A stretch of 64,000 bases of DNA from Lunularia cruciata (taxonomy: Eukaryota > Streptophyta > Marchantiopsida > Lunulariales > Lunulariaceae), in the NCBI GenBank assembly GCA_948567375.1, contig OX419755.1:67646944-67710943 (forward strand). Reading direction: 5' to 3'. Both the position numbers and the translations under genes were made by a program. Of the stretch, positions 2,872 through 44,277 are shown piece by piece. The first letter of the stretch is position 1; each line of letters opens with the position of its first letter. The notes below the pieces were generated by a model. The model did not search any database, was not told the DNA's origin, and saw nothing but the letters and a program-made list of their open reading frames with translations.

Positions 2872-2887
2872 TATTCCCCCACCGCTA

Positions 2888-8650: not shown

Positions 8651-8652
8651 CA

Positions 8653-18979: not shown

Positions 18980-18984
18980 TTTGG
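18980..18984. repeat. C target-site duplication, left copy
   Basis: TTTGG, against TCTGG at 20868-20872 and TCTGG in the empty site of DP2 (reverse of about 39360-39375). The difference is a C-to-T change. Confidence 0.75.
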
Positions 18985-20867: not shown

Positions 20868-20872
20868 TCTGG
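20868..20872. repeat. C target-site duplication, right copy
   Basis: TCTGG. Confidence 0.75.
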
Positions 20873-21085
20873 TAACCCCTAACTAATGACATTGGTAATA
20901 ACTCAAGATACCAATAAGCCAAGTGTGTCACATGATAGAGAGAGACTCTCCTAGTAGTCTCATCTCTCTCCACATACAAATACCTCTGTACTTGTATACC
21001 CATATGTAGGACCGCAAATAGTCTAGTGTTAATCTCACCAAAAAACTCTAATAGACATACTTCCTCTATTAGATACTACCAAGCA
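20868..21085 (-). pseudogene. DP1 DNA methyltransferase, N-terminal part (motif I)
   Basis: Minus strand 21081-20868. EEVCLLEFFGEINTRL is a damaged SAM-binding motif I (DP2 has LELFNGISTRL), followed by MGIQVQRYLYVERDETTRR and HVTHLAYWYLELLPMS, matching DP2 residue for residue in many places. The acidic residue of VERD is where these enzymes contact the cofactor. C interrupts after RGYQ. Confidence 0.82.
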
Positions 21086-22270
21086 ATGAGTGTGGTATCC
21101 AAAAGTGTCAAGGTAATCAACTATGGAGGCTCATCCTCACATTGGTCTCCTGGTGGTACAAAGGTTCCACTCCAAGCCTACTGCACTAACTAGTCTGCAT
21201 GCTTCTGCAATGCCTCCTCTGAACTCCACAAAGGAATATCCAAGGTGGATGGAACAATCCCACTCGTACTCCAAATCCAAATGATCTCCTTTGGTACTGA
21301 AGTATCCTCTACATGGGCATTCCACTCCAATAACTCACTAGGCCAAGTAACAGAACCATTGAAAGCTGAAACTGATGTTGCTATGGTCCTGGACTGTAGT
21401 GAGCCAAGATTGCCACTATTGAAACGTACTAGTAGGTGACATACTCATCCCTCACTAGACTGCCAACTTGGTCTATAGGAGGTTGTCTATTCCCAACAAT
21501 CAATACTGAAACACATGGAGTATAGCACTGCTCCACCAACTAGCACATCATATAACTCAACTATTGTCACAATAGCCTAAGGTCTCACCACCGAGCTATC
21601 AATCAGATGACTAGGCTGAATTTGAACAACTAGCTCTCCACATGTGATGTATTGTGTCAAACCACCTCCTAGAGATAAATGGTTCTGAAATAGATACCTC
21701 TCCACATCGGTCTTCCATAACCCTAGACCAACAACTATAGCCTTCCCCAACATAAGGAGTTGCGCACCAAAATCTAATAAGACTCTCTACGGTGTATATT
21801 CCTTGAAAGTCCTACCAAACAGAAAATCCACCTCTAGTTATCTAATAGGACAACACAAGGTGTGAACCGTGCACTCTTAAAGGCCGGTCTAGTTGTCAAT
21901 TCCTCCAATCTAGCTATTGTTGCCTACCATAAACCACTGGTTGTTGAGCAAACCCCATGCTCCTCAACCAAGTCAAATCCACTATCAACCACCTTTGCTC
22001 TAGTAGCAGGAGCCATATTATCCCTACTCTCACAAAGCATGGCTGCCAATTGGAACATTGGGGTTGGGTCAACACCCAATGTACACATGTCATTGGCTGA
22101 AAATAAAAGATAGCACATAATCAGCGGAGCCGCCTCCAACATTGTGCTAGACTTAATCTATGTAGTGGCAGGTGGCTGACTAGTAGGTAGTCCATCATGC
22201 ATCCCATCACCACCTACCACACCTGCATTAGGATATCTAGGAGCCATAGATGATGTATGTAGGGCCTCAT
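21086..22270 (-). pseudogene. DP1 protease remnant and protease-methyltransferase linker
   Basis: At about 21800-21720 the minus strand reads VLLDFGAQLLMLGKA, a retropepsin active-site region in which the usual D-S/T-G is D-F-G. DP2 has LLESGV at the same place. Below it a conserved linker runs to the methyltransferase (blocks near 21540 and 21250). DP2 38690-39165 is collinear with the lower part. No intact ORF. Confidence 0.6.
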
Positions 22271-24379: not shown

Positions 24380-24832
24380 AAATATAATCGGTTTATTTAT
24401 ACAACTTGAACCACACTCAATCAGATCAGTACTTGATCTGTCACTCAACAATCTACCAAAAACTAGGTACTGATTATAGTCAAGCCACACCCACTCTAGC
24501 TAAGAGACTCCATGTGACGCTTGCCAGCTTTCTATCTACTCTAGCCAAGAACTCAAATGCTCAACATCAAAGAAGTGAGCTCTCTAGAGCTGCACTTCTA
24601 GGGTATGCTCCTAATTTTGACCTAGATCTCACCCCAATAGTCCCATTGATGGCACACCCAATGGTGTAAACTATGTAAGTGATGGTGGGCCCTACTATGT
24701 AGTCAATACCTTGAACAAAAAATTTGACCATCAAAAAGTAGTATATGAGCAATTGCCAAAATACCTCTAACTACTATCACTACTACTCCAGAGTCCAAGC
24801 AATCTAGATCTGATTCTACAAATGGCATGACA
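24380..24832 (-). repeat. DP1 5' LTR (lacks terminal segment)
   Basis: Ends GGCATGACA at 24832 (sense start TGTCATGCC). Homologous to 26403-26853 and to the larger part of 99-654. The last 105 bp of the full LTR are absent, exactly as in the DP2 5' LTR. Confidence 0.75.
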
Positions 24833-26402: not shown

Positions 26403-26853
26403 TGTCACGCCATTTGTAGTACCGCATCTAGATTGGTCGGACACTAGAGTTGCAATGATAGTAGTTAGAGGTATTTTAGCAATCATTCATAGACTACTTT
26501 CCAACCATCAGACTTTGTGTTTGGGATATTGACTTCATGGTGGGGCCTACAATCACTTTGCACCATTTGCACCGTTGGGTGTGCCATCAATAAGACCATT
26601 AGGGTTGCAGACCTAGCTTGAGTCTAGGAGTATACTTTTGAAGTGCAGCTCTAGAGAGCTCATTTCTATGATGTTTAGCCTTCAAGTTCCTGGGTATGGT
26701 GGACAGAGGCCAGTGAGCATCACCTGAGTTCTCTTAACTAGAGTGTGTGTGGTTTGATTGTAATGAGTGCCCAATTATTGCAGTTTATAGAGTGACAGAT
26801 CAAGTACTAATCTGAGTTGAGTTGATTTGAGTGGTGTAAACAAACTGATTACA
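26403..26853 (+). repeat. DP2 5' LTR (lacks terminal segment)
   Basis: Starts TGTCACGCC and ends CTGATTACA. Homologous to 43726-44170 but lacks the last 105 bp found in full LTRs. No recognisable primer site follows, so primer site and terminal segment were probably lost together in an ancestor of DP1 and DP2. Confidence 0.75.
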
Positions 26854-28315
26854 TCAAAAAAGTGAAGTCAGGTGGGAAATCAGGTGCATGAACTACAAAT
26901 GTTGGTGGTATCTCCAAGCTTGGTGGATCATTGGTAGCTCAATCAAAGATCAAGTTTTCCCTAGTGTGCAAAAGCTTGTTGATTGATGCAGATTTGGCAA
27001 TGAGCTAGACGGTATGCGGAAGTGCTAGCCAAATTTTGAGCAAAGAGAAGCAAATTTTGAGCAATGGTTGTGATTTTGAACTCAAGAGGTGAAAGAAATA
27101 CCAATTTATTACAAGTTGGGCTCAAAATATGAAGTCAATAGAGTTGGGAAACTATCCTCATTAATTTATGATTTGGAAAAACCTGTCATTTCAATTTGGC
27201 CTGAGTGGAGAGTTAGTGGAGGATTTTATGGTCAGTCAACTTTAGGGATTATGTTAGATTTTTGGTGGAGTTTATGTCAGATTTTGGCCAGATTTGGAGG
27301 AGTTTCAAAGTAGAAAATTTTTGGCTAGAGTTGGAGGAGTTTCACACATTTAGAAGACTTTTGCTAAATTTGGAGAGGGTTCAAAATGGCAATAAGAAAG
27401 GCCTCATTTGGCTAAATTTCAGCATTTAGAGGCTTCAAAGCATAGTATTGTGGGCTATGAGAGGCTACAAAGGCCTAGAAGGGCCAACAAGCCAACTTGC
27501 TAGCATGGGGCTAGCTAGTTTAGAGTAGATCTTTGTCATTTTTTGGCCAAATCTGCCCATCTTGCTAGATCATGCGCAATAGGGTTTTATCCTTAGATCT
27601 CTAGTTCTTAGACTTGTGCCCTAGCCAATTGGTCTACCCTCACTTGTTGTCCTAGTGACTATTCCATTGTTATCTATACACCTGTAGCTTTGGTTAGTAG
27701 AGGCAGTTTGATCTCATTCTTGGTATCCTAGTAGCTTAGGACGTAGATAAGAACTCCTATTATGTCGAATGCCAAATGGTGGTAGAGTAAGTCTTGTGTT
27801 CCTTTATGAGATGGAGGGTTTTTGTTTAGATTTCTTGTAATTGGACCTCCTCCATTCTCTACTTCTTGTTTGTACACCATGTTTGTGTGAGATGCCTTGA
27901 ATTTAGAGTGTTGGTGCTTTGGTGTACTCTTGATGGTGAGGCCAGAGTGATGACCAGTCAAACTACCTTTGTTTCTCTTTGATGAGGTAGGAAGTAATGA
28001 ACTATAGAGCGTGAGAGTGTGTTGTGATGGCAGGTTATAGGTTGCACTTTCTCCTAAGGTAGTTCTCTCAATTAGAGTTACATTAGTGGGTAGTGTTCCG
28101 TTGGTATTGGCACTTGATGTTGGTACTTGGTGGTGTTCGGTTGGTGGTGTTCGTTCTTGGTGGGGTACTTGTGGTTGTGTTTGGCAATTTGTGGTTACTT
28201 TGTCACAATGGAGTTCTTTGGGGATTTTAGAGGAGATAGCTCGACAATATGCAATGAGTTTACTTGGAGTGGCGCTTGATATCAGCCTGTATCTTAGGTT
28301 CCAATGAGGAAGGAG
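26854..28315 (+). other. DP2 leader
   Basis: About 1.5 kb without a supported gene. Frames at 27089-27313 and 28086-28307 carry no known motif. Partly collinear with 22779-24380 of DP1. Confidence 0.5.
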
Positions 28316-31075
28316 ATTGACTCTGAGTTGTAGTTTGACATAAGAGTTGATTCAGTCAAGAGTGCACTTGGCATGTTTGCACAATTCTTGTGGGACATGG
28401 ATGAGATTTATAGGGCCTCCAAAGGCTCTAAGTGTTACTCTGGTAGAATGGGTACCATTGAGTTGGATGACTTCATCCAAGAATTTGATAGTTGGTGTGA
28501 TTTGCAATAGATGCGGAACCCAACTTCGTTCACATCTTTCATGGCATGAAAGGGATTATTTCAGCACTTGGAGTATTTGCTGATGGACAACTACCATGAG
28601 TTCAAGAAAGCTTACTTAGAGGAGATTGAGTTATGGAGACAATATTGGTTTGTGAACTATGTCTCCATCACTTTAGGCTTGGTTGCCAAGGATAGATCGG
28701 TTATACCTATAAGTTCTAGCTCAAGTTGCATTGGTGGAGCTAGTGGAGGTGCACTAGCTGAAGATAGTGCTACTATGAGTGGAGGTACCGCTACAAGATG
28801 TGGTGTAGTACCGGGGTTTAACTCCATGGTGGAGTTCTTCTAGAGTTTGAGGACAAACTACCAAGGAGTGCAGATTGACAAGCTAAAGAGCTTGTAGGAG
28901 TTCCAACAAAAGGCTAGAGAGAGCTTACGCAAGGCATACACTTGCATAAGGTGGCTGATCAGTTTCACTCAGGGTTATTGAGGCCTAGGCAGTTCAATTT
29001 TGGTATGGGATACTAGACAGAGAGTTGCAATGTAGAGTTCATGATGCTATGTTGTTATAGGCTACTTCACCCACTTTGGCAATGGTCTTTGCTTTGGTTG
29101 AGCATATTGAGCTCAACATGGTGGAAGAGAGAGTGGTGACATTTGGATTTGGTAGGGAGACCTCATCTATAGCTATGACTTCTTCTAGAGTGCAGTAGAG
29201 TGCACCATGCCTAGTTGGTTTTTGAGGACAAGGTGGAAAACCTAGATCCTATGGAGCGAGTGGAGGGCCTAGTGGAGCTAGACCCTTACCTTCATTTTTA
29301 GGTCAGTGGCAACCAATGAGTGGTGATGTTGCTTGTTAGACTTGTGGTGGACCTTACTATAGGAGAGAGTGTACTCAAGGAAGCGGACCTGATACCTCTG
29401 GTGCATCACAACCAGCACAAAGACAATATAAGAATTTTCATAGATATGGTCACTCTAGTGACCGATGCTTTGACCTACATTTAGAGTTACATACAAAGTA
29501 GTAGGGTTGCTATGGCATGTAGTAGAGAAGCTCCAATTCATGGAAGACGAGGTGGTAGAGGTGGTGGTAGAGGATCTACACCTAGTAGGAGTGCAATACT
29601 TGCCCTTACTTTTGATACAACTATGGCTACTTGGATTGAGCAGTTGGAGTAGAGATTGTCTAGTATGGCCATTGCTCAAAGGAGATCAAATTTGGGTGCT
29701 AAGGCTTCCACCTCATATGTTGGTGATAGAGATGCTTTAGGCTTCATGTGCGGAGCAACATAGGTGGATGTATCTATAGCAATGACTAGGAGTGCAATAT
29801 GTGCTCCAAAGCCTAGAGGAGCATTAGTGGAGTTGGACCCACAGAGAGGAGAGGTTGGGAGATAGGTCAAACTTCCCCAATCTTTCATGCTCTTAGTATT
29901 AGTCCCCAAACTATATCTCCATCACTTTAGGCTTGGTTTTTAGGAGTAGATTGGCTATACCCATGAGTTTTAGCTCTAGTAGCATTGGTGGATCTCTTGA
30001 AGATTGTGCTACTATGATTGGAGGTACTACTATAGGAGGTGGTTTAGTACCAGGGTTTAATCCCATATTGGAGTTCTTCCTGTTTGAGGCAAACCTACCA
30101 GAGAGTGCAGACCAACAAGCTAAGGAGCTTGTAGGAGTTCCAACGAAAGGCTGGAGAGAGCCTACATGAGGCATACACTTTGCATGAAACAATTGATCAA
30201 TTTTACTCAGGGATTTATTGAGGCCCAAGCAATCTAGTTTTGGTATGGGTTACTAGATAGGGAGTTGCAATGTAGAGTATGTGATGCTACGTTGTTATAG
30301 GCTACTTCACCTACTTTGGCAGTGGTCTTTGGTTTTGCTGAGCATATTGAGCTCAACATGGTAGAGAGAGAGTGGAGACATATGGATTTGGTAGGAAGAC
30401 CTCATCCATAGCTGTTACTTCTAGAGTGTAGTAGAGTGCACCACGCCATGTTGATTTTTGAGGACAAGATGGACAGCCCATATCCTATGAAGCAAGTGGA
30501 GGGCCTATTGTAGCTAGACCCTTACTTTCATTTTTGGGTCAGTACTAGCCAATGAGTGATGGTGTTGCTTGTTGGACTTGTGGTAGACCTCACCATACTA
30601 GAGAGTGCACTTAGGGTAGGGGACTTGATACCTTTGGTGCATCACAATCAACATAGAGACAATGTGAGCATTGCCATAGATTTGGCCACTATGGTAGGTG
30701 GTAGAGGAGCTCCAGGTCATCATGGAGGAGGTGGTAGAGGATCCACTCCTAGTTAGGATGAAATACCTACTCTTACTTTTGATATAGCCATGGCTACTTG
30801 AATTGAGTAGTTAGAGCAGAGATTGGCCAGCATGGCTATAGCTTAGAGGAGATCAGATTTTGGGTGTTGAGGCTTCCACCTCATATGCAAGTGATAGAGA
30901 TGTCTTAGACTTCATGTGTGGAGTAGCACATGTAGAAGCATCTATCACAATGACTAGGAGTGTAGTATGTGTTCCAAATCCTAGAGGATCATCAATGGAG
31001 TTGGACCCACAGAGAGGAGAGGCTGGTAGATAGGTCAGACTTCCCCAATCTCTTACACTCTTTGAGGCACTATGG
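28316..31075 (+). pseudogene. DP2 gag with internal tandem duplication
   Basis: Capsid-like region at 28316-28640 (GRMGTIELDDFIQEF; MDNYHEFKKAYLEEIELW). Two diverged copies of about 1.25 kb follow (28655-29900 and 29905-31070). Each has a G/S-rich start, a capsid tail and a first zinc knuckle; the second copy reads CWTCGRPHHTREC (30566-30610), and unit 1 shows a mutated equivalent at about 29334. Each then has a second knuckle-like element (unit 1 HRYGHSSDRCFDL) and a Gly/Arg-rich tail. Stops are frequent. DP1 lacks this whole section. Confidence 0.7.
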
Positions 31076-31777
31076 ACAACATCCATGGATCCTAGACATC
31101 CTAGTGCAAGTGTAGTAGGTGTTGATGGGGTGCATGATGCACTACCTACTAGTCAACCACCTGCTACTACACAAATTGAGTCTAGCACAATGTTGTAGAT
31201 GATTCAGTTGATTATACGCTTTCCATTATTCTCAATCATTGATATATTTACATAGAGAGTTGACCTAGCCCTAGTGTTTTGGTTGACTACCACGCTTTGT
31301 GAGAGCAGGAATGAAGTGGTTCCTACTACTAGAGCAGAGGTGGTTGATAGTGGAGTTGACTTGGTTGAGGAGCATGGGATTTGCTTAGTGACCAATGGTT
31401 TATGGCAAGCAATAATGGCTAGATTGGAGCTAGACTGGCCTTTGAGTGAGCGTGGTTTACACCTAGAGTTATCCTATTGGATAACAAAAAGGGGATTTTT
31501 AAGTTGGTAGGGCCTTCAAGGAAGGTCTATATACCACAAAGGGTCTTACTAGAATCTGGTGTGTAGCCTTTTATGTTGGGAAAGGTTGCAGTTAGTGGTC
31601 TAAAGTTATGGAAGACCGAGGTGAAGAGGTATCCATTCAGACCCAAACATCTCTACGTGATGGTTCTACACAATACATCACATGTGAAGAGTTTGTTGTC
31701 TAGATTTAGCCTGGTCATCCAATTGACAGCTCTATGGTGAGAGCGCAGGCCATTGCAACTATGGTTGAGTCATATGA
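31076..31777 (+). pseudogene. DP2 protease remnant
   Basis: At 31540-31610 the frame reads VLLESGV, a stop, then PFMLGKVAVSGL, aligned with LLDFGAQLLMLGKA of DP1. The catalytic Asp is Glu here, so it is inactive. Preceding codons (31297-31470) match DP1 21860-22110. CHR2 interrupts at 31778. Confidence 0.6.
31773..31777. repeat. CHR2 target-site duplication, left copy
   Basis: TATGA, matched by 38681-38685. DP1 has the single uninterrupted site near 21548-21560 (reverse). Confidence 0.88.
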
Positions 31778-32371
31778 TGTAATATAAGCAGCTAGACATA
31801 TTATCTAGAGGTAAAAATTGACTTGGTAACATCTAGAAGGATGTTGTATACAATGGGCTAGGTAGATCAAACAGATGTGTCACCAAAAGATTACTTCTAC
31901 TAATAGGGTAAAGATCAATAATAGCCTAAAAACTTTAAAACCAATTTTGGAGGCTAATAGATGAATTAGGCCTCCAAAATAGAAAGATTCCCTCCTTGAG
32001 GAGGAAAGCCTTGCCTTCTCCTCCTATGATTTGTGTCATTGAGAGCTTTCCAATGGTACCTCACCCACACAATTTTAAGCTCTCTACAAGAAGATTCCTT
32101 AAAGATTCCCTTTGGTCAAACCCGTTTAACCTACTAGATAGGACAAGGACTAGTATGTCAACCATCTAAAAAACTAATCCAAGGATGGAGCTTGCTGACA
32201 GGTCACTAATCCATGTATATGATCCAAGGATGGAGCTTCCTTTGGGGGTATACTCTTTGCTATATAATAAAGAGAAGGTGTTCCTTTGGAGCATCGGAGG
32301 ATTGATTGTGAAACTTGTGTTTTCTCTCTTGTATCTCTCTTGGAGAGTCCTCTTGTCCTTGGAGTATTATA
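31778..32371 (+). repeat. CHR2 5' LTR
   Basis: 594 bp, TGTAATATAAGC to GTATTATA (TACA mutated). TATA box CTATATAATA at 32260-32269, about 110 bp before the LTR end, with a CT-rich leader after it. Confidence 0.9.
32260..32269 (+). promoter_or_regulatory. CHR2 LTR TATA box
   Basis: CTATATAATA, conserved at the same place in 38566-38575 and 23707-23716. Confidence 0.7.
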
Positions 32372-32372
32372 A

Positions 32373-32390
32373 TGGTATTAAAGCGGATGT
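32373..32390 (+). other. CHR2 primer binding site
   Basis: TGGTATTAAAGCGGATGT one base after the 5' LTR. Two changes from the initiator tRNA-Met site TGGTATCAGAGC, both C-to-T or G-to-A. Confidence 0.8.
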
Positions 32391-32979
32391 TTTAATCCAA
32401 GAGAGTGGATCACCTCTCTTGGAAGAGCATGAGCTAATGAAATTGAGTAATTTGAGGGGAGAACATAGTGCAATTGCTAGATTGGGAAGTGCTTTAGAGA
32501 GCGGATGAGATAGATGCGCCGTGAGGACAATTTCCTACACCTAGCTTCCCATTCTTGAATCCATTCCACATTAAGATTAAGTACATCCAGCATGAGCAAA
32601 TGAAAGTATCTCTAGTTTATCACTTTGGAGCAGAGTTCATGGACAGAGTGATAAATTCACCAAACTTGGTGATTCTAGCTGTGATGGTATATGACATAGA
32701 GTGGAAATTGACAATCTACATTCTATTATGATGTTATGGATCTGAAAGTAACTAATCCTCACCCTTTCAACATGCAAGTAGAAATCTGTTATGTAGTTAG
32801 ACCAAAAGTGATGTTTAAGGATTTTGTAGTCCACAATTTTGGTGAGGAATATAATTAACAAGTGATAGCTCCTAAGGTCCCATTAGTAGTACCCATAGTT
32901 TGTGCACTCTCCCGGGTGATCATTCTAACCCTCTATTGAAGTAGGAAGTAGCAAGTGAACATTTGTTGTGTGTAGGAAT

Positions 32980-33800
32980 CATGGATCCATAGTTGTAGGA
33001 GTTGTTGCAAGGAATGCAAGGGATGTTGAACAAGTTTTGAGAAATCAAGATGACCATGGAGGAATTGCAAAATCAAGCACTTGCTATCAAGAATGATCAA
33101 GTAATGCAAGAAGGGGAGCCATCTCAACAACTAGCTCCAGCAATCAAAGTACTTGGAGAGTTATGCATGCCGATGACATAGATTCCAATCAACAACCAAG
33201 CCACATTGTTACTACAAATGAAAAAGACATGCAATATCAAGCCTTACAAGGGACAATGTTCCATGGGAGTAGTGGAAAATTGAATTTCAAGAATAAATTG
33301 ATACCTTTGATTGTTCACAATGGAGATCCCTTATCATTTTGCAGATGTGTTTGCATGTAGGTACTTGACCGATAAGGCCCTCACATGGTATGACGCTTGG
33401 GAACAATTGTTGCTAGTAGAAAGAAGAGAGGTCACTTGGACAGCCATGCAAGAAGGGTTGCTCAAGAATTTCCAATTTTTGAATTCAATGCAAATGGCCT
33501 AAACTAGACTCCGGGAGTTGAAGCAAAAGAATAACATACAAGAGTACACAAAGGCATTTCTAGATCTACAGGTTGTGATAACCGATACGAGTCCAGCCAA
33601 AGCTCTTGACAATTTCAAGAGAGGATTAAAAGAGCGGATTTGCCAAGAGGTAATGGTGCAAAATCCTCATATTGTTTTTGAAGCCATTACATGCACCCAA
33701 AGAATAGCAAAGGTGCTTGGAGGAGGTGAAGCAATAACACCAATGCAAAACTATCGGCCCAAGACACAACATTTTGGTGGACCAATACCTATGTAATTGG
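32980..33800 (+). pseudogene. CHR2 gag
   Basis: Readable in three pieces: about 32980-33160 (QELLQGMQGMLNKF, coiled N terminus), 33311-33502 (LTDKALTWYDAWEQLL, capsid motif) and 33518-33796 (QEYTKAFLDLQVVITD, then ALDNFKRGLKERICQEV). The order matches chromoviral capsid. A zinc knuckle is not evident. Stops and small frame changes separate the pieces. Confidence 0.75.
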
Positions 33801-34603
33801 GCAAATTTTGGTTCTAAGATAGAGGAGCAAGATCTCTTCAAGGAGACTAAGGACCGGTTAAAGAAAGGAGAGAAGAAGCCCCATGGGGAGAAGGGGCTTG
33901 AGCAAAACAATGATGATGTTACAATTGATGTGCTTGTCATCTTAGAGGCTCTCTAAACCACATGGAGAGACAAATTGAAGAGGAAGATATGGAAACCGTA
34001 TTGGAAAATGAAGATTGCCAATAAATGTACCTTGAGGCCTTATTGGCTTGGTGAAGAAGACTAAAAGTGGGAGGAGGAAGAAGACAAGTGTGCAAAGAAG
34101 AAGGAAGATAAATGCACAATTAATTGTTGTAAATGGATTGCTAGAAGACAATCCAATGAGAGTGTTGGTAGACCCTTGAGCAATAAAGAATTTCTTGTCT
34201 TGCTCTATTGCAATAAGGTTAGGGATGGAACTAGAGAAGGATGAGAAGGACAGAGTAGAATTACCTAATGGTTAGATAAAGAGGATTGAGTTGTTACCTA
34301 GAAAGGTAATACTCTCTGTAGGAGGGTATTGAGAAGCAATCAAGTGGCGAGTGATACAACTAGCTCATTATGATACAATCTTAAGTATGTTGTGGATGGA
34401 GCACTACAACACCATAGAGGATTGGAGAAAGAAAGTAGTGAAAACTAGTAAATGAAGATCTTGGGATTAAAGGAAGATCACAAAGGCAAGAGTTACCTTT
34501 GTATGTCATAAAGACCACATTTATTGGTAAGACAAATAGATGTTTCATGGCTTTAATAAGAGAAGTCTAGAGTGCCCAACACAATGGACAAATTCTTGAG
34601 AAA
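33801..34603 (+). pseudogene. CHR2 protease region
   Basis: About 34150-34440: VLVDP, a stop, then AIKNFLSCSIA, a retropepsin active site in which D-S-G has become D-P-stop. DTILSMLWMEHYN follows as the second hydrophobic box. Preceding codons are charged and low in complexity. Inactive. Confidence 0.6.
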
Positions 34604-35500
34604 TTGAAAGATGTAGTCAATGAGTTCCAAGATGTCTTTCCGGATGAATTACCTATAGGCTTACCACCAAAAAGGAGAGTAGATCATAAAATTGAGATAA
34701 ATCCTAAGAAGACACTTCCTTGTAAGACCCCATATCAACTATCACCTCATAAGTTGGAGGAGTGTAAGGCTCAAATCAAGGAGATATTGCAGAAGAGGTT
34801 TATCCAACCCAAGGTATCACTATATGGAGCTCCTGTATTGTTTATGAAGAAGAAGGACGGAACAATGCACATGTGCATTGACTATCAAGGATTGAATCAA
34901 CAAACAATGAAGAACAAATATCCATTACCTTGCATGGATGACTTGTTTGATCAACTCAATAGGACAAGGCACTTCATGAAACTTGATTTGCAAAGCGGTT
35001 ATAATCAAATCAGGATTGCGGAAGAAGACATACATAAAAAGGCCTTTCAAACAAAGTATGGTCACTTTAAGTACTTGGTGATGCCATTTGGCCTCACCAA
35101 TGCTCCAGCCACTTTATGAGTTTGATGAATGACATATTTTTTCAGTACTCGGATAAATCTATTATCATTTTTCTTGATGACATCTTAGTCTACAATAGGA
35201 TGTTGATAGAGCACAAGCAAAATCCATGAGAAATTCTCCAGATGCTGATAGAATCAATTGTATGCCAAAATCTCAAAGTGTGAGTTTGGCAAATCTACAA
35301 TAGACTACTTAGGGTATAGAGTAAGTGCAAAAGGTACCCAAGTATTAACAGATAAAATAAAGGTCATTCAAAAATAAAGTGCTCTAGAAGATTAGACTCA
35401 ACTCAAGAATTTCTTGGGATTGACAGGGTTTTATCATCAATTTGTCAAGGACTTCTCCAAGATTGCACAACCTCTAACAACACTATTGGACAAGGGAAAG
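34604..35500 (+). pseudogene. CHR2 reverse transcriptase
   Basis: Uninterrupted for 171 codons (34604-35119): [82 protein letters not shown] and [12 protein letters not shown], then a stop. The F-L-D-D catalytic box follows at about 35160-35200 (IIIFLDDILVYN). The thumb region continues to about 35500 (LGLTGFYHQFVKDFSKIAQ). Best preserved RT of the window. Confidence 0.9.
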
Positions 35501-36489
35501 AGGTGGATATGGGGAACCATACAAGAGTTGGATTCTTGTGCGGTTCCACATTTTAAGAGTTGAAAGATGCATTACTACATGCACCAATCTTGAAATGGTT
35601 TGACCAAAAACGTCCTATCAAGATGGCCATAGATGCATCAAGAGTAGCAATAGTAGTAGTCCTACAACAAGAATGGTAGGATGGATGGCACCCAATTGCA
35701 TATTTCTCTTGTAAGTTGCTACCAACAAAATGCAATTATCACAACCACTGAATAAGAAGAGTTGGCCATTGTCCTTGTAACCAAGCATTGGAAGCACTAT
35801 TCTGGTGAAAAGGCATTTGTCGTTTGTATATACATCACTACACAACATACATCATTGTCAACATCATACACTATAGAAGCACAACTCACACATAAGTCAT
35901 ACATAGACTCTAAAGTGCCAAATAATCAGATTGTTTACCACTCAACTCAACTCAACTCAACTCAACTCAACTCAGATCAGTATTTGATCTATCACTCTAT
36001 AAACTGCCAACAATTGGGCACTGATTACAATCAAGCCACACCCACCCAAGCATAGAGAATCTAGTTGATGCTCACCGGACTCTGTCCACCATAGCTAGGA
36101 ACTCAAAGGCTCAACATCAAAGAAGTGAGCTCTCTGGAGCTGCACTTCAAAAGTATACCCCCTGGACTTGAGCTAGGTCTGAACCCTAACGGTCCTACTG
36201 ACGGCACACTTGACGGTGAAAATGGTGCAAAGTGACGGTGGGCCCCACCATGAAGTTAGTACCCCAAACACAAAATCTGACCGTTGGAAAATAGTCTCTG
36301 AGAAATTGCTGAAATAACCCTAACTATTATCACTAGAACTCTAGTGTCCGAGCAATCTAGATGCGACATTACAAATGACGTGACATATTTGTGGTAGAGA
36401 TGGACCACAAACCTCTAGTCTACCTCAAGACATAAAAAGATCTTTCTCGTCGATAGATTTGGTGGGCAGAGGGGAGACAACAATTCAAC
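35501..36489 (+). pseudogene. CHR2 RNase H, split by a solo LTR
   Basis: The first part (about 35560-35815) reads MAIDASRVAIVVVLQQEW and ELAIVLVTKHWKHYSGEKAF. The second part resumes after 36386 with FVVEMDHKPLVYL. The two ends adjoin naturally if 35818-36385 is ignored. An RNase H DE-type core is recognisable; the domain is non-functional. Confidence 0.75.
35818..36385 (-). mobile_element. DP-family solo LTR inside CHR2
   Basis: 568 bp in minus orientation, TGTCGTTTG at the left and GACGTGACA at the right. It is a full-length match to DP 3' LTRs, including the terminal segment missing from the 5' LTRs. Flanks GCATT and TATTT suggest an imperfect CATTT-type duplication. Includes a (CTCAA)n stretch at about 35940-35978. 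Confidence 0.75.
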
Positions 36490-37548
36490 ATGACAATCAA
36501 ATATGTGGAAGGTAAGAAGCAACTTGCAAATGCATTCACCCAAATGCCAATGGCAAACAATTTGGTGGTGGAAATCAAGATGAACCCTAAATTTTGGCCC
36601 AAGATTCTTATTGCTACAAAAATTGATCCACAAATTGTAGGTGCTCAATCATCCAAAGGCATCACCAACATCCAAGGACTCACCTTCCATGATAGCAAGT
36701 TGTGGATCCCAGATGATATGGAACTAAGAACCACCATCCTAGAGTAATATCATAATTTTGCCGTTGTAGGTCATGTTGGAATGGACAAGACCTTGGATGC
36801 AGTCAAATGCTATTACTATTGGTCCAAGATGAACAATAATATGATGGAATATGTTTGGAGCTGCCTACTTTGTCAACATAATAAGGCTTCTAATCAAGCT
36901 TCTATAGGACTCCTCCAACTCTCTCCACTCCTACACAACATTGAGAACAAGTAAGCATGGATCTGGTTTGTGAATTGCCCAAGATCACCTCTGGGTTTGA
37001 CTCCATCATAGTCTTTGTTGACCTACTCAAAAAAACGATTCATGTACGTCCTACCACCAAGGATATGATTGCCCCACAACTAGCTCAATTGTACTTAGAT
37101 GTAGCCTTTTGCCATCATGGTTTGTCTCCAGTACTCATCACAGATAGAGGCATTCAATTCACTAGTTTGTTTTGGAGAACACTCTTTAGGTTCTTCAAAA
37201 CCAAATTGGCTATATCCACAACTTACCATCCACAAACCAATGGATAAATAGAGAGGGAAAATTGCACTATTGAGGATATGCTTTGGGGCTTTACTTTGGA
37301 GGAGCAAGAGAGTTGGGACTCCTTACTTCCATTGGTGGAATTTTCCTACAACAATTCAATGAATACCTCCACATAAGTCAGATTGTTCTTCCTTATGTAT
37401 GGAGAGCATCTTCACATCTTCAAGCTTGATGAAGGTTTGTCAAGTGGCTACCAAGGTTGATGTTGTCAACACTTTTGTTTCTAGGATCCAACATGAGGTG
37501 GAGCACACCAAGCACAGGTTGTAGATCATCCAAAATTAGAGAAGCAAT
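36490..37548 (+). pseudogene. CHR2 integrase
   Basis: 36490-36747: linker (KYVEGKKQLANAFTQMP). 36760-36900: H2C2 zinc module (HVGMDKTLDAV, then CLLCQHNKA). 36957-37247: catalytic core, first Asp in MDLVCELPK, second in LITDRGIQFT, then TTYHPQTNG followed by TAA where Gln is expected, and EREN supplying the third acidic residue just downstream. The stop is a CAA-to-TAA change. The rest of the core continues to about 37400. Confidence 0.85.
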
Positions 37549-38016
37549 ATGCAGTTTAAGCAATATAAGCAATATAAGCAATATACACACCGCCAATACA
37601 TGGAGTTCAATGTGGGAGATCAAGTTTGGCTGTCAACCACCAACCTCAAGTTAGTTGGTCCTCATAAGCTCAAACCTCATTTTATTGGACCTTTCTCCAT
37701 CCTTTGTTGCATCGGCGCCGTGGCCTATCACCTCGAGCTACCGCCACATATGAAAATCCACCTAGTTTTTCATGTTTCCTTATTATGCCGATATGCTCTC
37801 CGGCCGCCCCACTTCTCTTCCATCCAAGAAATTCAACCTTGTCCAACCCTTGTTGATGAGGCGGAGGAGTATGAGATCAAACGTATTCTCCAAAAATGCA
37901 TCCATGGTACTCACCATCCGCATGTGGAATATCTGATCCATTGGAAAGGCTACCCACTATACAAGGCAACATGGGAGCTAGCAACTAACTTGACCAACAC
38001 ACCAGTGTTAGTTTAA
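37549..38016 (+). pseudogene. CHR2 polyprotein C terminus with chromodomain
   Basis: 155 codons intact locally. It opens with a 9-bp repeat giving KQYKQYKQY, then the integrase tether (GDQVWLSTTNLK, HFIGPFSILCCIG, KIHLVFHVSLL) and a chromodomain at residues about 107-150 (YEIKRILQKC, HVEYLIHWKGYPLYKATWE) with its tryptophans present. Chromodomains on chromoviral integrases are thought to bind methylated H3K9 and direct insertion to heterochromatin. Ends TAA at about 38014. Confidence 0.88.
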
Positions 38017-38056
38017 TCTTTTGAGCAACAACTTCATGACAAGTAAGTTGTATCTT

Positions 38057-38071
38057 AAAAGGGGGGAAGTC
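38057..38071 (+). other. CHR2 polypurine tract
   Basis: AAAAGGGGGGAAGTC directly before the 3' LTR. Confidence 0.85.
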
Positions 38072-38118
38072 TGTAATACAAGCAACTAGACATTGCTTGT
38101 ATTACAGACCTCCCCCCT
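38060..38118. repeat. Inverted repeat at the CHR2 3' LTR start
   Basis: Arms 38060-38085 and 38093-38118, 26 nt each with one mismatch, loop CTAGACA. The right arm is a 25-nt insertion (38094-38118) relative to the 5' LTR and is an inverted copy of the polypurine tract plus LTR start. Confidence 0.9.
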
Positions 38119-38680
38119 ATTATCTAGAGGTGAAAATTGGTTGGTAACATCTAGAAAAAATATTTGTATAATGGGCTAGGTAGAGCAGACAAAGGTATCA
38201 CCAAAAGAGTACTTTTACTAATAGGGCAAAGATCAAAAATAGCCCAACAACTTTAAAGCCAATTTTGGAGGCCTAAACGGATGAATTAGGCCTTGAAAAT
38301 GTAAAGATTACTCCCCCTCCCCTTTAGGAATAAAGGCTTACCTTCTCCTCTTGTGATTTTTCTCATCAAGAGCTTTCCAATGGTACCTCACCCATGCAAT
38401 TTTGAGCTCCATACAAGAAGATTCCCTAAAGATTCCCTAAACTAGATATGACAAGGACTGACATGTCACCCATCCAAACAACTAATCCAAGGATGGAGCT
38501 TGTTGACAAGTCACCAATCCATGTATCTGATCCAAGGGTAGAGCTTCCTTTGAGGGGATACTCTTTGCTATATAATAAAGAGAAGGTGTTCCTTTGGAGA
38601 ATCAAAGGATTGAGTGTGAAAACTTATGTTTTCTCTCTTGTATCTCTCTTGGAGAGTTCTCTTGTCCTTGGAGTATTACA
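38072..38680 (+). repeat. CHR2 3' LTR
   Basis: TGTAATACAAGC to GTATTACA. Collinear with the 5' LTR except for the 25-nt inverted insertion. Confidence 0.9.
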
Positions 38681-38685
38681 TATGA
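38681..38685. repeat. CHR2 target-site duplication, right copy
   Basis: TATGA. Confidence 0.88.
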
Positions 38686-39169
38686 TATGTTAGTTGGGGG
38701 AGCAGTATTGTACTCCATGGATTTCAATATTGACTATTGGGAGGAGACAAGTCTCATATAGACCAAGTTAGCAGTTAGGTGAGAGACGGGTCTGTTGCCT
38801 ACAAGTACATTTTAGTAGTGGTAATCTTGGCTCACTATAGTCCGAGACCATGGTGGCTTGAGTTTCAGCTTTCAATGGTTTTGTTTCTTGGCCTGGTGAT
38901 TTATTGGAGTGGGACACCCATGCAAAGTATACTCTAGTACTAGTGGAGATCACTAGGGTTTGGAGTACGAGTGAGATTGTTCCACCCACTTTGGACGTTC
39001 CATTGTGGAGTTCAAGGGAGGCATTGTGGCAACATGCAGATTAGTTGGTGAAATAGGCTTGGAGTGGAGCCTTTGTACCACTAGGCAACTAGTGTGAGGA
39101 TGAGCCTCCAGAGTCGATTACCTTGATACCTTTGGATACCACACCCATTTCTTGGCAATATCCAGTAGA
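38686..39169 (+). pseudogene. DP2 protease-methyltransferase linker
   Basis: Collinear with 21085-21545 of DP1 (reverse). No domain recognised; degenerate frames only. Confidence 0.5.
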
Positions 39170-40130
39170 AGGAGTATGTCTATTGGAGTTGTTCAATGGG
39201 ATTAGCACTAGACTAGTTGCAATACTATAAGCAAGTATACAAGTACAAAGGTGCTTGTATGTGGAGAGAGATGAGATTGCTAGACAAGTCTCTCTACATC
39301 ATGTGGCACACTTGGCCTATCAATATCTTGAGTTATTATTGATATCAACAACTAGGGGTTACCAGAAGACCCTTCCAATAGATATTTCCTTCTTGGGGGC
39401 ATAAGATTTGGAGAGACATGGTCATGTTCATTTGGTGATTTTTGGATGGCCATGTTAGGGATATACACATGCTTGCCAAGATTTGGGTCCTTAGGATCCT
39501 CATTTTGGTGTGTTTTGGGAGATGTTACAGATACTACACCATCTCTAGGTTCATCAATCTATTTCTCCAATTTACATTTTGGAGAAAAACATCCCTTTGA
39601 TGGGTGATTCTCGCACCTGAGTGGTGGCAAGTACACTTTAGGTCCATTCTTAGATGGGACCTGCCGTGTTGTCAGATGCAACCAGAGAGTGATCATGGGC
39701 TCATCCTCTTTATCTTTGGTGGACAAACCTCTTACCTAGAGAGGTTCTATAGTCCACTTATGATGGGATTCAACATCTAGACCACATCATTATTAATGAC
39801 ATCTTGGATGTTAGGGATTAGTCTCAAATGGTGGTAGTGGCTGATAGGTCACCTATGGTAGTGGTGAACCTAGTTGGACAGCCATAGAGCCACTTTTCTC
39901 ACACTTATGAGTTTCACAAGCTCCTATGCTTTTTGAGAGGGAGGTCTTGGACTGGTTTGGGACCCATAATTATGGTATTTGGTGGAGCCTAACGCCGATG
40001 AGAGAGAAAGGGCAATGGCTTTTTGCATTGGTATTATTGCTATTCCAATAGTGTTAAGGGAATCCAGGGATTAAGTGTTAGGTCAAGCTGTGGACATGAA
40101 TTGTTTGACCTGGATTGTGAGCCTTGGTTT
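39170..40130 (+). pseudogene. DP2 C5-cytosine DNA methyltransferase domain
   Basis: One frame interrupted by about a dozen stops. Motif I (SAM binding) is LLELFNGISTRL, followed by IQVQRCLYVERDEIARQVSL. Motif IV is HLVIFGWPC (39435-39455) with the catalytic cysteine, then TAG at 39456-39458 where Gln is expected. Motif VI region is YILEKNIPLMGDS (ENV-like; DP1 keeps LLENVPLMGDS). Motif VIII-like is AHPLYLWWTNLLPREVL. Motif X-like is VLGQAVDMNCLTWIVSL by alignment with DP1 (40074-40128). The order is canonical (I, IV, VI, VIII, X), closer to DNMT3/DNMT1 than to the permuted DRM enzymes of plants. It would have methylated cytosine C5 with S-adenosylmethionine. Its placement between protease and RT, shared by DP1, shows it was an element gene and not a chance neighbour. 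Confidence 0.85.
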
Positions 40131-40569
40131 GACATAGCAACATAGGATGCGCTTGATATGCATCACCATTTAGACACTTGTGAGCTTTGTGCCTATCAAG
40201 ACAATTCAGGCACATGCTGAGGATGATGGACCAAGTGGTCAAGGTATTCTTGGGACACAACCAATGGCTACTAGGAGTCCATCTTGGTGAGTATGGTCTA
40301 CTTAGGATGCAGCTAGAGGACATATGGAGCTTGTAGCCAGATCAAAAGGAGTTTTTCACACTCAGTTTGGGACCTCTAATGCTTGGAGGCATGACACTAT
40401 TGCTCCCAAGGCCCAATGTAGTAGCCGATCAGTACATCTTCTACTCCTACAACAATTATAAAGAATACTCGGTAGCTAGATCTTGGACCCAAGCTTATAG
40501 GAGAGGAAAGACAAAAGGTTTGGAGGTTCTTGAAGAGCTACATGAGTTGTTTTGCCTTTAGTATGATGG
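40131..40569 (+). other. DP2 spacer between methyltransferase and RT
   Basis: Collinear with 17741-18204 of DP1. A partial frame (SWTQAYRRGKTKGLEVLEEL, 40470-40540) is shared by both copies but matches no domain I know. The empty target site of B lies at about 40553-40562. Confidence 0.5.
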
Positions 40570-41500
40570 ATTTGGGTGCTCTAAAGGGCACAAGTATTTG
40601 GATTGAGCTGATTAGCAATACACCAATTTTTTACTGTTTTGATGATAAAGTGACATGGAGAGTATGCATCAGGTATAATGATACATATACCAGCCAAGAA
40701 GGATATGTATCAACTAAATAGATAGATGGATATATGGAGATTACCATCTTATCAATTGACAGACTAGGGTTGATCGGTATGTTGTGCTTACACTGGAGGA
40801 GATATTTGATGTGATTGGGCATGCAAAGGTCTTAAGTACTTTGGATCTTTGAGCAAGATATCATCATTTGTCAATCAAGGAGGAAGATAAGTCCAAGATA
40901 GTATTTTGGCCTATCGATCCTCACGGCAAGGATGTGTTATATCACGGAGGTTCTTACCATTTGGATTAAAGAACATTCTTGTCGAGTTCCAAAGGGTCAT
41001 GGACAAGATCTTAGCTGGATTGGATTTTGCTTGATGCTACATTGATGACATTTTGGTCTATAGCATTACTATGGAGGAGCATGAGAGACAATTGTTGGAG
41101 GTGTTTGAGAGGTTGAGATCTCATGGACTCAAATTACATCTTAGGAAGTGTAGGTTCTTCCATAAGCAGGTTGAGTATTTGGATCACAATATCTACCTCA
41201 AAGGACTTGGTGTTCAGTAGACTAAAGTGAAGGCTATTGTATATATTCCTTGGCCTACGGATGTGAGTAGAGTGTGAGCATTCCTTGCATTATTGAACTT
41301 CTATCATTGCTATATTAAGGGATTTAATGCCATTGCTAAGGCCTTGACGAAGCTGACCAAGCTTACATAGGAGTGGTGTTGGGAAGATGAGCAAGAGAGA
41401 CCTTTTGTAGAGCTCAAGGAGAGGTTGACATCTGCTTATATTTTGAGGAGACTGATCAAAGGATAACCATTTCAGGTTCACACCGGTTGGAGTATATTGG
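40570..41500 (+). pseudogene. DP2 reverse transcriptase
   Basis: Pieces in order: WIELISNTPIFYC (40598-40640), VLTLEEIFDVIGHAKVLSTL then DL, ARYHHLSIKEEDKSKIVFW, MDKILAGLDFA, CYIDDILVYSITMEEHERQL (catalytic Y-I-D-D at about 41040), LRSHGLKLHLRKCRFFHKQV and FNAIAKALTKLTKL. Stops mostly at Gln/Arg positions and several frameshifts. Confidence 0.82.
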
Positions 41501-41547
41501 GGCTTGGAGCAATGCTCACCTAGCATGATGATGAGGAGAAGGAGTTT

Positions 41548-41935
41548 ATGGTGGCCTGTGCTAGTTGCTCCAACAATTCAGCGGAGGTGAAGTATACTTT
41601 ATATGAGGGAGAGTGCTTGCCAGCAGTATGGGCAATAACACATTCCCAATGTTACCTATTTGGTAGCCCTTTTACTCTCATCATTGATCATCAGCCACTA
41701 AAGTGGTTGATGGAGTCCAAGAAGCTTTCAAGGAAGCTTGCACAATGGGCTCTAATTTTACATGAGTATGATTTCATGATTATTCACAAACCTGGAATGG
41801 TGAACCGTGATGCAAATGAGTTGAGTAGAAACTCATGTCCCAACCAAGAAGATCAAACCGGAGCATGTTGGCATGGTGAGACAGATGAGGAGATGGTGCC
41901 AAGTTGACATGCATCTGCCTTTCTCTATATATTTT
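41548..41935 (+). pseudogene. DP2 RNase H
   Basis: 119-codon intact stretch (41548-41907): EVKYTLYEGECLPAVWAITH, QCYLFGSPFTLIIDHQPLKW, LSRKLAQWALILHEYDFMII and MVNRDANELSRN. These are the central and terminal RNase H motifs. Lies directly before the integrase. The empty target site of CHR1 is at about 41940-41960. Confidence 0.82.
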
Positions 41936-41999
41936 TGAGGCTTTGGTGGTATCTTTCTCAGCGCATATAGGACAAGTTATTGAGGTCACAAATATAGAG

Positions 42000-42840
42000 A
42001 GTGGGGATAGTAGTACAATTTAGCAAGACATTCATGATGATGTCTTAATGATGGACTATCTTTGCATTGGTGTTGTGGATGGCACAATTGCGTCCAAGGA
42101 GAGAGACCATGTTCTTCAACAAGCTAGACGGTTCAGATTGGAATGCAAAACTTTTTTGCATGTATGGGAAGATGGTAGAGTGCAAGTAGTACCACTTCCA
42201 TCTTGGAGACCACAGTTGGTCCATCATGCTCATGAGGAGCTAAGACATTTTGGAGCATACATATAGCTTACTCCAAAGTCATTATTGGTGGTGCGGTATG
42301 CAGACCAATGTATAGCAATTTGTTGCCAAATGTGTGGTTTGTGACCAAGTTAGAGCATCATTCAATGCTCCTATGCCATTACACCTATTACCTATCATGG
42401 GATTGGATTACTGCTGAAGTTTGGACTTCATTGGACCTTTCCCGTTGATTGTGAGACATCATCAATATGTTTTGGTGATGGTGGAGCACTTCTCCAAGTG
42501 GATGAGTTGGTGACACTTCCTAACAAGTCCAGTGAAGGGACAGTTTACTCGTTCTTGGATCAAGTCTTTAGTCATTTTGGTGCACCAGTTGAGGTTTTGA
42601 CTGATTAGGGCATAGAGTTCTTAGGAGAGTTTCAAGTCTTGTGTGACAAGGCTTTGATTGATCATCATACTACCTCTTGAGATCACCCTAAGGTAGATGG
42701 CTTAACAGAGAGAGTGGTTCAGATAGTGAAGAGAGGATTGTGAAAGTATGGTTTGCAAAAAGGCCACTTGGGAGATTGTGATCACTAGTTACCTTGGTTG
42801 GCCATGGGCTATTGGTTCAGCTGGTAAGCCTTCTTAGCAT
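42000..42840 (+). pseudogene. DP2 integrase
   Basis: Zinc-binding module at 42120-42360 (FLHVWEDGRVQVVPLPS, LVHHAHEELRHFG, then CQMCGL). The catalytic core follows in broken frames to about 42830 (FDFIGPFPLIV region, SHFGAPVEVLTD, GDHPKVDGLTERVV by eye). Not functional. Confidence 0.7.
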
Positions 42841-43307
42841 CTTTCTCTCCTTACTTTCTACTCTATAGATGAGATCCAAATTTACCTATAGCCATTTTTC
42901 AAGATGCTACTATAGTGTTGGACTTGGATGATCTAGATGTATGGATGAGGGCATGTTCTCAACGAGTAGAGATCTTTTGAAGATGATGCCAATGGCCTTT
43001 GAGAACTTGGTCATTTCTAAGCATAGGGACACCTTACATATGCTACCATTTAAGGAAGAGGTTATAGATCCTCAATCCATCAATTTCATCTAGGTGAGTA
43101 TGTATATCTACAGCAGATAACACCTACGATAGTTGATGTTTTTGTAGGCTGCACTATCTTGAGAGTGCATGAGGTTTTGCCATCTTGAGTTCTTGTGTTG
43201 GAAGGATGTGATGGTGTTGTTTGGAAGGATCATGTGCACCATGCCACCTCCCAAACATTGATAGTACTATGGACCCAAGCTTGGCACTTGTACTTGCAAG
43301 CTTACAG
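42841..43307 (+). pseudogene. DP2 integrase C-terminal extension
   Basis: Between core and PHD finger, homologous to 1065-1390 of DP1. Readable pieces end with LPNIDSTMDPSLALVLASL just before the finger. DP1 preserves TGCTILRVCKVLPSGVLVLE, which has the feel of a small beta-barrel, but I cannot assign it. Confidence 0.5.
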
Positions 43308-43445
43308 TGTATGTTATGCGGCTCTTCTAGTGGAGTTGCTATTATGTTAGTATGTGATAATTGTTTGAGAGGATGGCATATGGCATGTATGACTCCTCTC
43401 CTCATGGTGGTTCCTCAAGGACAATGGTTATGTCTTAGATGTGTT
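43308..43445 (+). pseudogene. PHD finger at the C terminus of the DP2 polyprotein (intact domain)
   Basis: All eight zinc ligands are present in Cys4-His-Cys3 order: CMLC, VCDNC, GWHMAC, WLCLRC, with the conserved Trp two residues before the last pair. The polyprotein ends one residue later (TGA at 43446-43448). The pattern CDNC..RGWH and the VPQGQWLC tail are closest, by eye, to PHD fingers of the BAZ/ATXR5 kind, which bind the H3 N-terminal tail. In DP1 the same finger is at the same place. Likely role, by analogy with chromodomains, is targeting of integration; this is inference. Confidence 0.85.
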
Positions 43446-43610: not shown

Positions 43611-43723
43611 GTGGCAATTATGGCACTTTAAAGTTCATGTATGACTTATGTGTGAGTTGTGCTTCTATAGTGTATGATGTTGACAATGATATATGTTGTA
43701 TAGCGATGTGTATATGCATAATA
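43611..43723 (+). repeat. Extra copy of the DP LTR terminal segment
   Basis: Matches 44170-44277, placed just before the 3' LTR as in DP1. Confidence 0.65.
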
Positions 43724-43725
43724 GC

Positions 43726-44277
43726 TTCCATGCCATTTGTAGCATTGCATCTAGATTGCTTGGACATTGGAGTAGTAGTGATAATAGTTAAAGGTATTTT
43801 GGCAATTACTCATCGACTACTTTCCGATGGTCAAATTTTGTGTTTGGGGTACATGACCATAGTGGGGCACACCATCACTTGCACCGTTTGCACCGTCAAT
43901 TGTGCCATCAACAAGACCGTTGGGATGGGACCTAGGTCAAATCAAGAGTATACCATAGAAGTGTAGCTCCAGAGAGCTCACTTCTTTGATGTTGAGCCTT
44001 CAAGTTCCTCGCTAAAGTGGATAGAAAGCCTCCAAGCATCACTTGGAGTCTCTTAGCTAGAGTGGGTGTGGCTTGACTGTAATCAGTATCAAGTTGTTGG
44101 CAGATTGTTGAGTGATAGATCAAATACTGATCTGATTGAGTGTGATTCGAGTTGTGTAAACAAAGTGATTATTGTGGCACTTTAGAGTTCATGTATGACT
44201 TATGTGTGAGTTGTGTTTCTATAGTGTATGATGTTGATAGCGATGTATGTTGTATAGCAATGTGCATACGCATGACA
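43726..44277 (+). repeat. DP2 3' LTR
   Basis: 552 bp ending GCATGACA; full-length relative of 35818-36385. Confidence 0.78.

Follow-up and report, generated by a model that had tools for sequence, protein, structure and literature searches.

Probable capture of a DNMT3-type methyltransferase and a PHD finger by a Ty3/gypsy-type retrotransposon family with split terminal repeats in the liverwort Lunularia cruciata

Introduction

Why would a retrotransposon of a liverwort carry its own DNA methyltransferase? Retrotransposons are usually harmed by DNA methylation, and a land-plant family that keeps a methyltransferase under selection raises the question of benefit. The question is posed here by a 64-kb window (the whole stretch of DNA analysed) of the Lunularia cruciata genome, for which a preliminary description had reported two element copies, DP1 and DP2, with a C5-methyltransferase (DNMT) between protease and reverse transcriptase (RT).

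Capture of a Dnmt3 by a gypsy element with DIRS-like repeats is already known: as far as its available text goes, de Mendoza et al. 2018 (PMC5890265) describe such an element from Klebsormidium nitens, with purifying selection, and a yeast test of this KnitGypsy-Dnmt3 that gave no methylation and was judged inconclusive. DNMT3s embedded in retrotransposons are also mentioned in PMC12344493 (2025), whose accessible text names LTR Copia and DIRS families. The available part of PMC6453930 treats host DNMT3 of non-flowering plants and ties none to a retroelement, and that of PMC6338049 treats retrotransposon accessory domains and does not use the word PHD. In the accessible portions of the open-licence literature, we found no report of the DP1/DP2 family in land plants or of its PHD finger, and a gypsy element with split repeats was found in PMC5890265 only.

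Results

The window holds two interrupted copies of a single element family: DP2 (+) spans 26403 to 44277 and is interrupted by a 6.9-kb chromodomain gypsy insert, and DP1 (-) runs from 24832 down to 99, interrupted by a 9.4-kb insert and by a 1.9-kb repeat that is present three times. Their features are as follows, A and B denoting the parts of the terminal repeats.

26403..26851, +, DP2 5' repeat A1, starting TGTCA
28142..29892, +, DP2 Gag region
29909-31062, +, partial second Gag copy of DP2, an internal tandem duplication (28655-29894 against 29909-31062, 77% identical)
31429..31784, +, DP2 protease region, truncated downstream by the insert
31799..38688, +, chromodomain gypsy inserted in DP2 (Chromo 38.1 bits, cut-off 25.1)
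31799-32378 and 38118-38688, +, LTRs of this insert
35814..36385, -, solo A-B of the DP1/DP2 family within the chromodomain gypsy
39144..39962, +, DP2 methyltransferase, apparently DNMT3-type, motifs I to VIII in a single frame broken by 12 stops, the final one at 39885
39886..40150, +, DP2 methyltransferase C-terminal part, motifs IX and X, in a different frame
40476..41937, +, DP2 reverse transcriptase and RNase H
41937..43242, +, DP2 integrase (H2C2 and core)
43308..43442, +, DP2 C-terminal PHD finger (27.3 bits, cut-off 24)
43617..44277, +, DP2 3' end: B1 43617-43719, A2 about 43730-44170, B2 44171-44277 (ending TGACA)
24384..24832, -, DP1 5' repeat A1, TGTCA start at 24832
20869..21822, -, DP1 protease through to the beginning of the methyltransferase (motif I lies near 21060)
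18985..20868, -, 1.9-kb repeat splitting the DP1 methyltransferase
13247-15126 and 15850-17735, the other 1.9-kb repeat copies, all within DP1
18204..19031, -, DP1 methyltransferase, motifs IV to X
11763..13245, -, DP1 reverse transcriptase and RNase H
2446..11805, -, insert in DP1: another gypsy-type element plus a partial 1.9-kb repeat
near 9034-9486 (RT) and 7210-7755 (integrase), -, the gypsy within that insert
934..2448, -, DP1 integrase and PHD finger remnant
99..763, -, DP1 3' end: B1, A2, B2 (ending CAACA at 99)

The preliminary description placed the DP2 domain at 39170-40130; the domain lies there, but extends from about 39144 to 40150 and occupies two frames. Both pieces described for DP1 were recovered (21085-20869 and 19031-18204), with the correction that the 1.9-kb repeat splits them; part of this repeat is additionally found at 5814-6857. 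In both copies the protease lies upstream of the methyltransferase and RT, RNase H and integrase lie downstream, as had been described, but in DP2 the 6.9-kb gypsy insert cuts the protease off from the methyltransferase. No DNMT was detected in this insert (31799-38688) when the six-frame window was searched with the 52-domain profile described below.

Both copies are old. Their own A1 and A2 are 80.2% (DP1) and 78.9% (DP2) identical, and inspection of the flanks of DP1, DP2 and the solo A-B revealed no intact target duplication. The comparison of DP1 with DP2 is flat across codon positions in DNMT, RT and integrase, which points to two dead copies drifting neutrally and is uninformative on selection; for want of a codon-position bias, selection inferred from this pair was dropped. 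The flank GGAC is common to the DP1 5' side (24833-24836) and the DP2 3' side (44278-44281), and the DP2 5' flank AGTA (26399-26402) resembles the DP1 3' flank AGTG (95-98). These matches give a hint that the inverted copies may have recombined, with flanks swapped and the DNA between them inverted. Beside the repeats, at 53022-54591 and perhaps to 56486 (-), lie pieces of a host histidine kinase gene, in which HATPase_c and response regulator receiver domains are recognised.

Could the motifs be a chance likeness within decayed DNA? The raw copies fall short of the curated PF00145 cut-off of 22 bits (DP1 12.7 bits, DP2 no match), as such a likeness would. A profile built from 52 related DNMT domains and run on the six-frame window nevertheless gave DP1 293 bits over motifs IV-X and a further 53 bits over the motif I part, and DP2 234 plus 88 bits, against at most 2.9 bits in 20 Markov-shuffled windows. 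Across the genome, 123 matches exceed the PF00145 cut-off, and all 17 element copies read belong to the DP1/DP2 family. Chance, already excluded by the shuffled windows, has a vanishingly small probability. The PF00145 cut-off was passed by less decayed relatives, namely the protein P0001 (36.2 bits; identity to DP2 55%, with 57% of the query aligned) and the contig L001 (45.9 bits). Since the raw copies miss that cut-off, the refutation test of the preliminary description, if applied to single decayed copies, would have misfired.

Motifs I, IV, VI, VIII, IX and X stand in canonical, non-permuted order in the alignment, in agreement with the preliminary description. The catalytic Cys is kept in 48/48 rows covering that position and the motif VI Glu in 51/51, from Closterium to liverworts. 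All 16 PDB matches (E up to 10) of the raw DP2 domain are DNMT3A (best E 0.0028), and DNMT3A/B/C supply the first 29 PDB sequence matches and ranks 1-33 of the structural matches, among the 50 listed in each case; DNMT1, MET1 and CMT chains occur neither among the PDB sequence matches (E up to 10) nor among the structural matches listed. From these comparisons, a DNMT3-type enzyme, rather than the permuted DRM type, is supported. A DNMT3-like or DNMT1-like source had been proposed; the former is supported, and the latter, though still conceivable, gained no support among the matches listed. Identity with DNMT3A/DNMT3B (PDB 6kda, 6f57 and others) is 24%, and the element's domain, unlike those enzymes, sits in a Gag-Pol polyprotein. 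A host DRM gene of the same genome (L039, 2935-4071; 350 bits to DRM2, PF00145 start at residue 241) has the rearranged domain order that the element's methyltransferase lacks. Motif IV reads GWEC instead of GWPC in P0040, P0041, P0043, P0044, P0046, P0047, P0049 and P0050, P0040 and P0044 apart all from Closterium; this change, which adjoins the catalytic Cys, is unusual.

The assembly searched (G000) comprises 565,766,749 bases (566 Mb) in 74 contigs, and the 123 PF00145 matches scored there came from 2161 candidates. Most have no internal stop, and they include at least one host gene (the DRM gene above). Seventeen element copies were read, nine picked for long frames, a choice that favours intact copies, and eight sampled at intervals of about 15 rows down the list. 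A tenth long-frame pick, L021, contributed just a 5' part and does not enter the 17-copy counts; L038, L040 and L041 are further host-gene candidates. The position between protease and RT claimed for the window copies recurs throughout: the order protease, DNMT, RT, RNase H, integrase, PHD was found in 17/17 copies. Over these copies, pN/pS is 0.42 for the DNMT (bootstrap 0.29-0.61), close to the Gag and Pol values (Gag 0.41, protease 0.33, RT 0.31, RNase H 0.31, integrase 0.48); that of the PHD finger is 0.38, with a wide interval reaching 1.49. The frame is free of stops in 9/17 copies for the DNMT and in 12/17 for RT. Within a copy, A1 and A2 differ by 0.7-5.4% in 14/15 copies and by 10% in L019, from which it follows that most of the genome insertions read are recent and DP1 and DP2 old. 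Judged by its sequences, the family is large and recently active.

Relatives occur outside Lunularia. L001 (CADCWO010000201.1), a 9.3-kb contig with open frames and 127-bp identical ends, comes from a cyanobacterial genome bin, where it is probably contamination; its identical ends resemble what overlapping assembly of a repeat would leave. Its ORF1 holds zinc knuckles (recognised by eye), a protease-like match of 20.5 bits (below the cut-off of 24.3) and the PF00145 match; its ORF2 holds RT, RNase H, integrase and a PHD finger (39.9 bits). Compared with the genome copies, most of its DNMT stretches are 46-53% identical and most of its RT stretches 64-68%. Fifty proteins matched its DNMT region at E up to 1e-3 among 8000 scored, and the species named are Marchantia polymorpha, Calypogeia fissa, Closterium and Sphagnum fallax. 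No relative was found among the viral contigs searched. In the DNMT tree, whose outgroup is a piece of human DNMT3A only, DP1 and DP2 group with liverwort and moss sequences in a clade of 19 rows (100/100). In the RT tree, built on 12 rows, DP stands with Marchantia and then L001, and the two trees are concordant where resolved.

Among the proteins P0001-P0051, protease precedes DNMT in 39/39 showing both, and RT follows DNMT in 9/11 showing both. The other two, P0038 and P0044, have the Pfam order RT, RNase H, DNMT, followed in P0038 by integrase and PHD. This second order also fits P0040, with RNase H before DNMT, and P0048, with DNMT followed by integrase and PHD; P0040 additionally carries a G-patch domain. 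DIRS elements carry Dam at a position matching the place of the DNMT in these second-order relatives.

The preliminary description had put PHD finger and methyltransferase in one polyprotein. One reading frame does hold both, but a conserved TAG separates them. In L001, a TAG at 3489, with CAATCA after it, is the sole stop from the start of ORF1 to the end of ORF2. A TAG stands at the equivalent place in 15/15 genome copies counted (L024 and L032 not included), and in 14/15 the next codons are CAG and either CCA or CTA. Up to the end of RT, 5/15 have no other in-frame stop, and 10/15 carry 1 to 4 more. In tobacco mosaic virus, readthrough takes place in the context UAG-CAR-YYA, and by its context the TAG of the element appears leaky-stop-like. 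If it works as a leaky stop, Gag-protease-DNMT would be the main product, without PHD, and RT-RNase H-integrase-PHD a rarer extension; the DNMT, lying upstream, would be made at Gag level. The closest PHD fingers in the PDB are those of CHD4, KMT2D, MLL3, PHF12, KAT6A, DPF3, KDM5B and PHF21A. Several of these recognise H3 that lacks methylation at K4, and we infer that the element's finger may likewise read chromatin.

The ends of the element are arranged in an unusual manner. The 3' end reads B-A-B in 17/17 copies (B2 of L034 is incomplete), and the 5' end has a full A of about 449 bp in 15/17, with about 75 bp left in L006 and none in L024; B is 106 bp long. The outer ends are TGTCA...CGACA (TGACA in L019), and exact 4-bp target duplications flank 11/15 copies, as against 2/210 mismatched flank pairs; the four copies without one include L034, whose 3' flank is missing from the sequence. 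Outer ends and duplications together imply that integrase inserted A-coding-B-A-B as a whole unit. The inner joint between B1 and A2 is a palindrome, ACGACA-GC-TGTCAC, exactly ACGACAGCTGTCAC in 10/17 copies, with few-base differences elsewhere. In L003, two consecutive B-A-B blocks (3781-5281) show the 3' end duplicated together with the G-rich tract described next.

Two sites define what reverse transcription would treat as the LTR. Directly after A1 stands ACATCAGAGAAGTGA, exact with the A end in 13/15 copies having a full A1; this 15-nt site is complementary at 15/15 positions to a stretch inside A in the four copies tested (0/2000 shuffles each). A tRNA primer site beside A1 was considered and set aside, as the TGG start was not seen by eye and self-priming fits instead; the LTR of the chromodomain gypsy, taken as a control, has no self-complementary pair beyond 8 nt. 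Directly before B1 stands a polypurine-like, G-rich tract, AGGGGGGCG, joined directly to ATT in 14/17 copies. Primer site and G-rich tract together give an LTR of the form B-GC-A, starting ATTGTGG and ending CTGATT. The A2/B2 joint is CTGATTATTGTGG, reading CTGATT/ATTGTGG, in 16/17 copies, and the remaining copy differs by one base. Because the LTR is B-GC-A and this joint is the LTR end followed by the LTR start, the integrated form equals an opened two-LTR circle. L001 has the same 15-mer joint, ACGACAGCTGTCACG, at 7049-7063, and a 108-bp B after a G-run; its 13-nt self-complementary pair (7239 and 7415) was matched in 0/1000 shuffles in a test made post hoc. A joint TGACA-TCTT-TGTCA at 7235 in L001 had been entertained and was replaced by the exact 15-mer.

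In 13 copies (L002 and L019 left out), B1 and B2 of a copy differ at 17/1359 sites and A1 and A2 at 125/5826. Minor B variants are common to both repeats of one copy in four cases and not in 17, and B1 and B2 do not clearly form distinct lineages in these 13 copies, an outcome that both of the routes discussed below allow.

Discussion

Taken as a whole, the reading that we consider likely sees in DP1 and DP2 the old, inactive remains of a Ty3/gypsy-type family which captured a DNMT3-type methyltransferase and a PHD finger, and which would replicate and integrate in five steps, all inferred from its sequences. The 5' end of the RNA would fold back and prime reverse transcription in a Tf1-like manner. 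Reverse transcription would yield a linear DNA with the LTR B-GC-A, whose ends would then be joined to form a two-LTR circle; this third step is proposed because the A2/B2 joint is exactly LTR end plus LTR start. Integrase would cut one internal B/GC/A palindrome on both strands, leaving two CA-3' ends and a 2-nt overhang, and would then insert the opened circle. Finally, the methyltransferase, present at Gag level in the particle, may methylate element DNA (the circle or the new insert), and the integrase-borne PHD finger may bind H3 tails, probably those unmethylated at K4, and steer insertion.

The same ends could be produced by DIRS-like replication combined with a gypsy integrase, in which the RNA would run into B2, closure of the cDNA would use a complementary region inside it, and B2 would arise by templated copying of the parental RNA and not by the joining of LTR ends. 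A-coding-B-A-B is the DIRS arrangement in the accessible text of PMC5890265, and the A2/B2 joint is uniform in 16/17 copies, where end joining might leave small indels. The primer-like site exactly at the end of A and the G-rich tract exactly at the start of B fit LTR reverse transcription, however, and the outer TG...CA ends have 4-bp duplications; a weak further point is that four minor variants are common to B1 and B2 of a copy and 17 are not. We take the DIRS-like route seriously as a possibility, while doubting that it is the right one.

If integration proceeds from the circle as proposed, the family may represent a class of integrase-bearing retrotransposons that insert from a two-LTR circle by cutting the LTR palindrome ACGACA-GC-TGTCAC in place of linear ends, the methyltransferase serving the circular stage, a tentative view to which we give a little less than an even chance. 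DIRS elements, which have split-repeat ends and recruited Dam or Dnmt3, suggest by analogy that a methyltransferase would serve a circular DNA stage. Should this hold, repeated methyltransferase capture would follow the replication route and not the integrase type. With such ends, an old question becomes testable, namely whether two-LTR circular DNA is a real substrate of a retroviral-type integrase. The joint occurrence of split-repeat ends and methyltransferases in DIRS and in the DP1/DP2 family leads to a concrete proposal for what the enzyme does.

With respect to the METHYLTRANSFERASE role, CpG observed/expected in the dead copies is 0.19 (DP1) and 0.16 (DP2), against 0.20 in the DNMT-less chromodomain gypsy of the window and 0.90 in the host-gene region. 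The genome copies with DNMT that were read have 0.35-0.54, and a DNMT-less gypsy (5' parts of L021 and L030, one copy having a 1600-aa open frame) has 0.12. Of 174 differences between the DP2 methyltransferase and one genome copy, 105 are C to T or G to A. Host methylation explains the CpG loss, and CpG depletion as a sign of self-methylation was rejected, being equal to or weaker than that in the measured DNMT-less gypsies.

A CpG content without a methylation signature, and the presence in this genome of a gypsy that has a 1600-aa open frame but no DNMT, would suit a methyltransferase that is a mere passenger, captured once and hitch-hiking with no role in the element. We hold this to be improbable: the upper bound of the DNMT pN/pS is 0.61 around a value of 0.42, the catalytic Cys and the motif VI Glu persist in every covering row from Closterium to liverworts, and the RT and DNMT trees agree where resolved. 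Alternatively, the enzyme may act mainly on the DNA of the host or of rivals, where it would open or close chromatin or silence other elements, instead of on the element. Its place upstream of the leaky-stop-like TAG, where it would be made at Gag level and free of integrase, is consistent with such a target, as is the milder CpG depletion of the element copies relative to one rival gypsy. The rivals measured, however, are one 4.8-kb copy and one 1.5-kb piece, and the rival's CpG loss is explained by host methylation alone. We regard this target as rather unlikely.

The closest published element is, to judge from the available text of PMC5890265, the charophyte KnitGypsy-Dnmt3, which has in common with the DP1/DP2 family a gypsy-type Pol, a non-rearranged Dnmt3-type domain with its catalytic residues, purifying selection and DIRS-like repeats. 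Its Ka/Ks lies below 0.2, compared with our pN/pS of 0.42. The likeness is one of description; no protein named K. nitens appears among the 50 matches listed. In the main text of PMC5890265, PHD, "target site" and "circular" are absent, and TSD occurs once, for another element. Against the accessible parts of the literature found, several features appear to be new. They concern where the family occurs (liverworts, mosses and Closterium) and how many copies a single genome holds; its coding part, with the PHD finger, the TAG and the alternative place of the DNMT; and its termini, with signs of self-priming, target duplications and an arrangement that we read as a two-LTR circle after opening.

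SymbioDIRS-Dnmt3 and the DIRS elements with Dam methylases, as described in the available text of PMC5890265, share the A-coding-B-A-B arrangement and a methyltransferase in Pol. The DP1/DP2 family differs from DIRS in having a DDE integrase (rve) and 4-bp target duplications. A tyrosine recombinase (PF00589) was not found by Pfam in L001, DP2 or P0038, and rve was found in L001 and P0038; the DDE residues are present by eye in the L017 integrase. With Ty3/gypsy elements the family shares the order protease, RT, RNase H, integrase, an rve integrase, 4-bp duplications and TG...CA ends, but instead of two whole LTRs outside it has A at the 5' end and B-A-B at the 3' end. LTR elements of the Tf1/sushi type self-prime from a site of about 11 nt beside the LTR that is complementary to a stretch inside it; the DP1/DP2 family has a primer site placed in the same way, but of 15 nt, together with permuted ends, DNMT and PHD. 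Finally, chromodomain gypsies likewise carry a histone-reading module at the integrase C-terminus, whereas the family described here has a PHD finger in place of the chromodomain, a DNMT and a different end structure.
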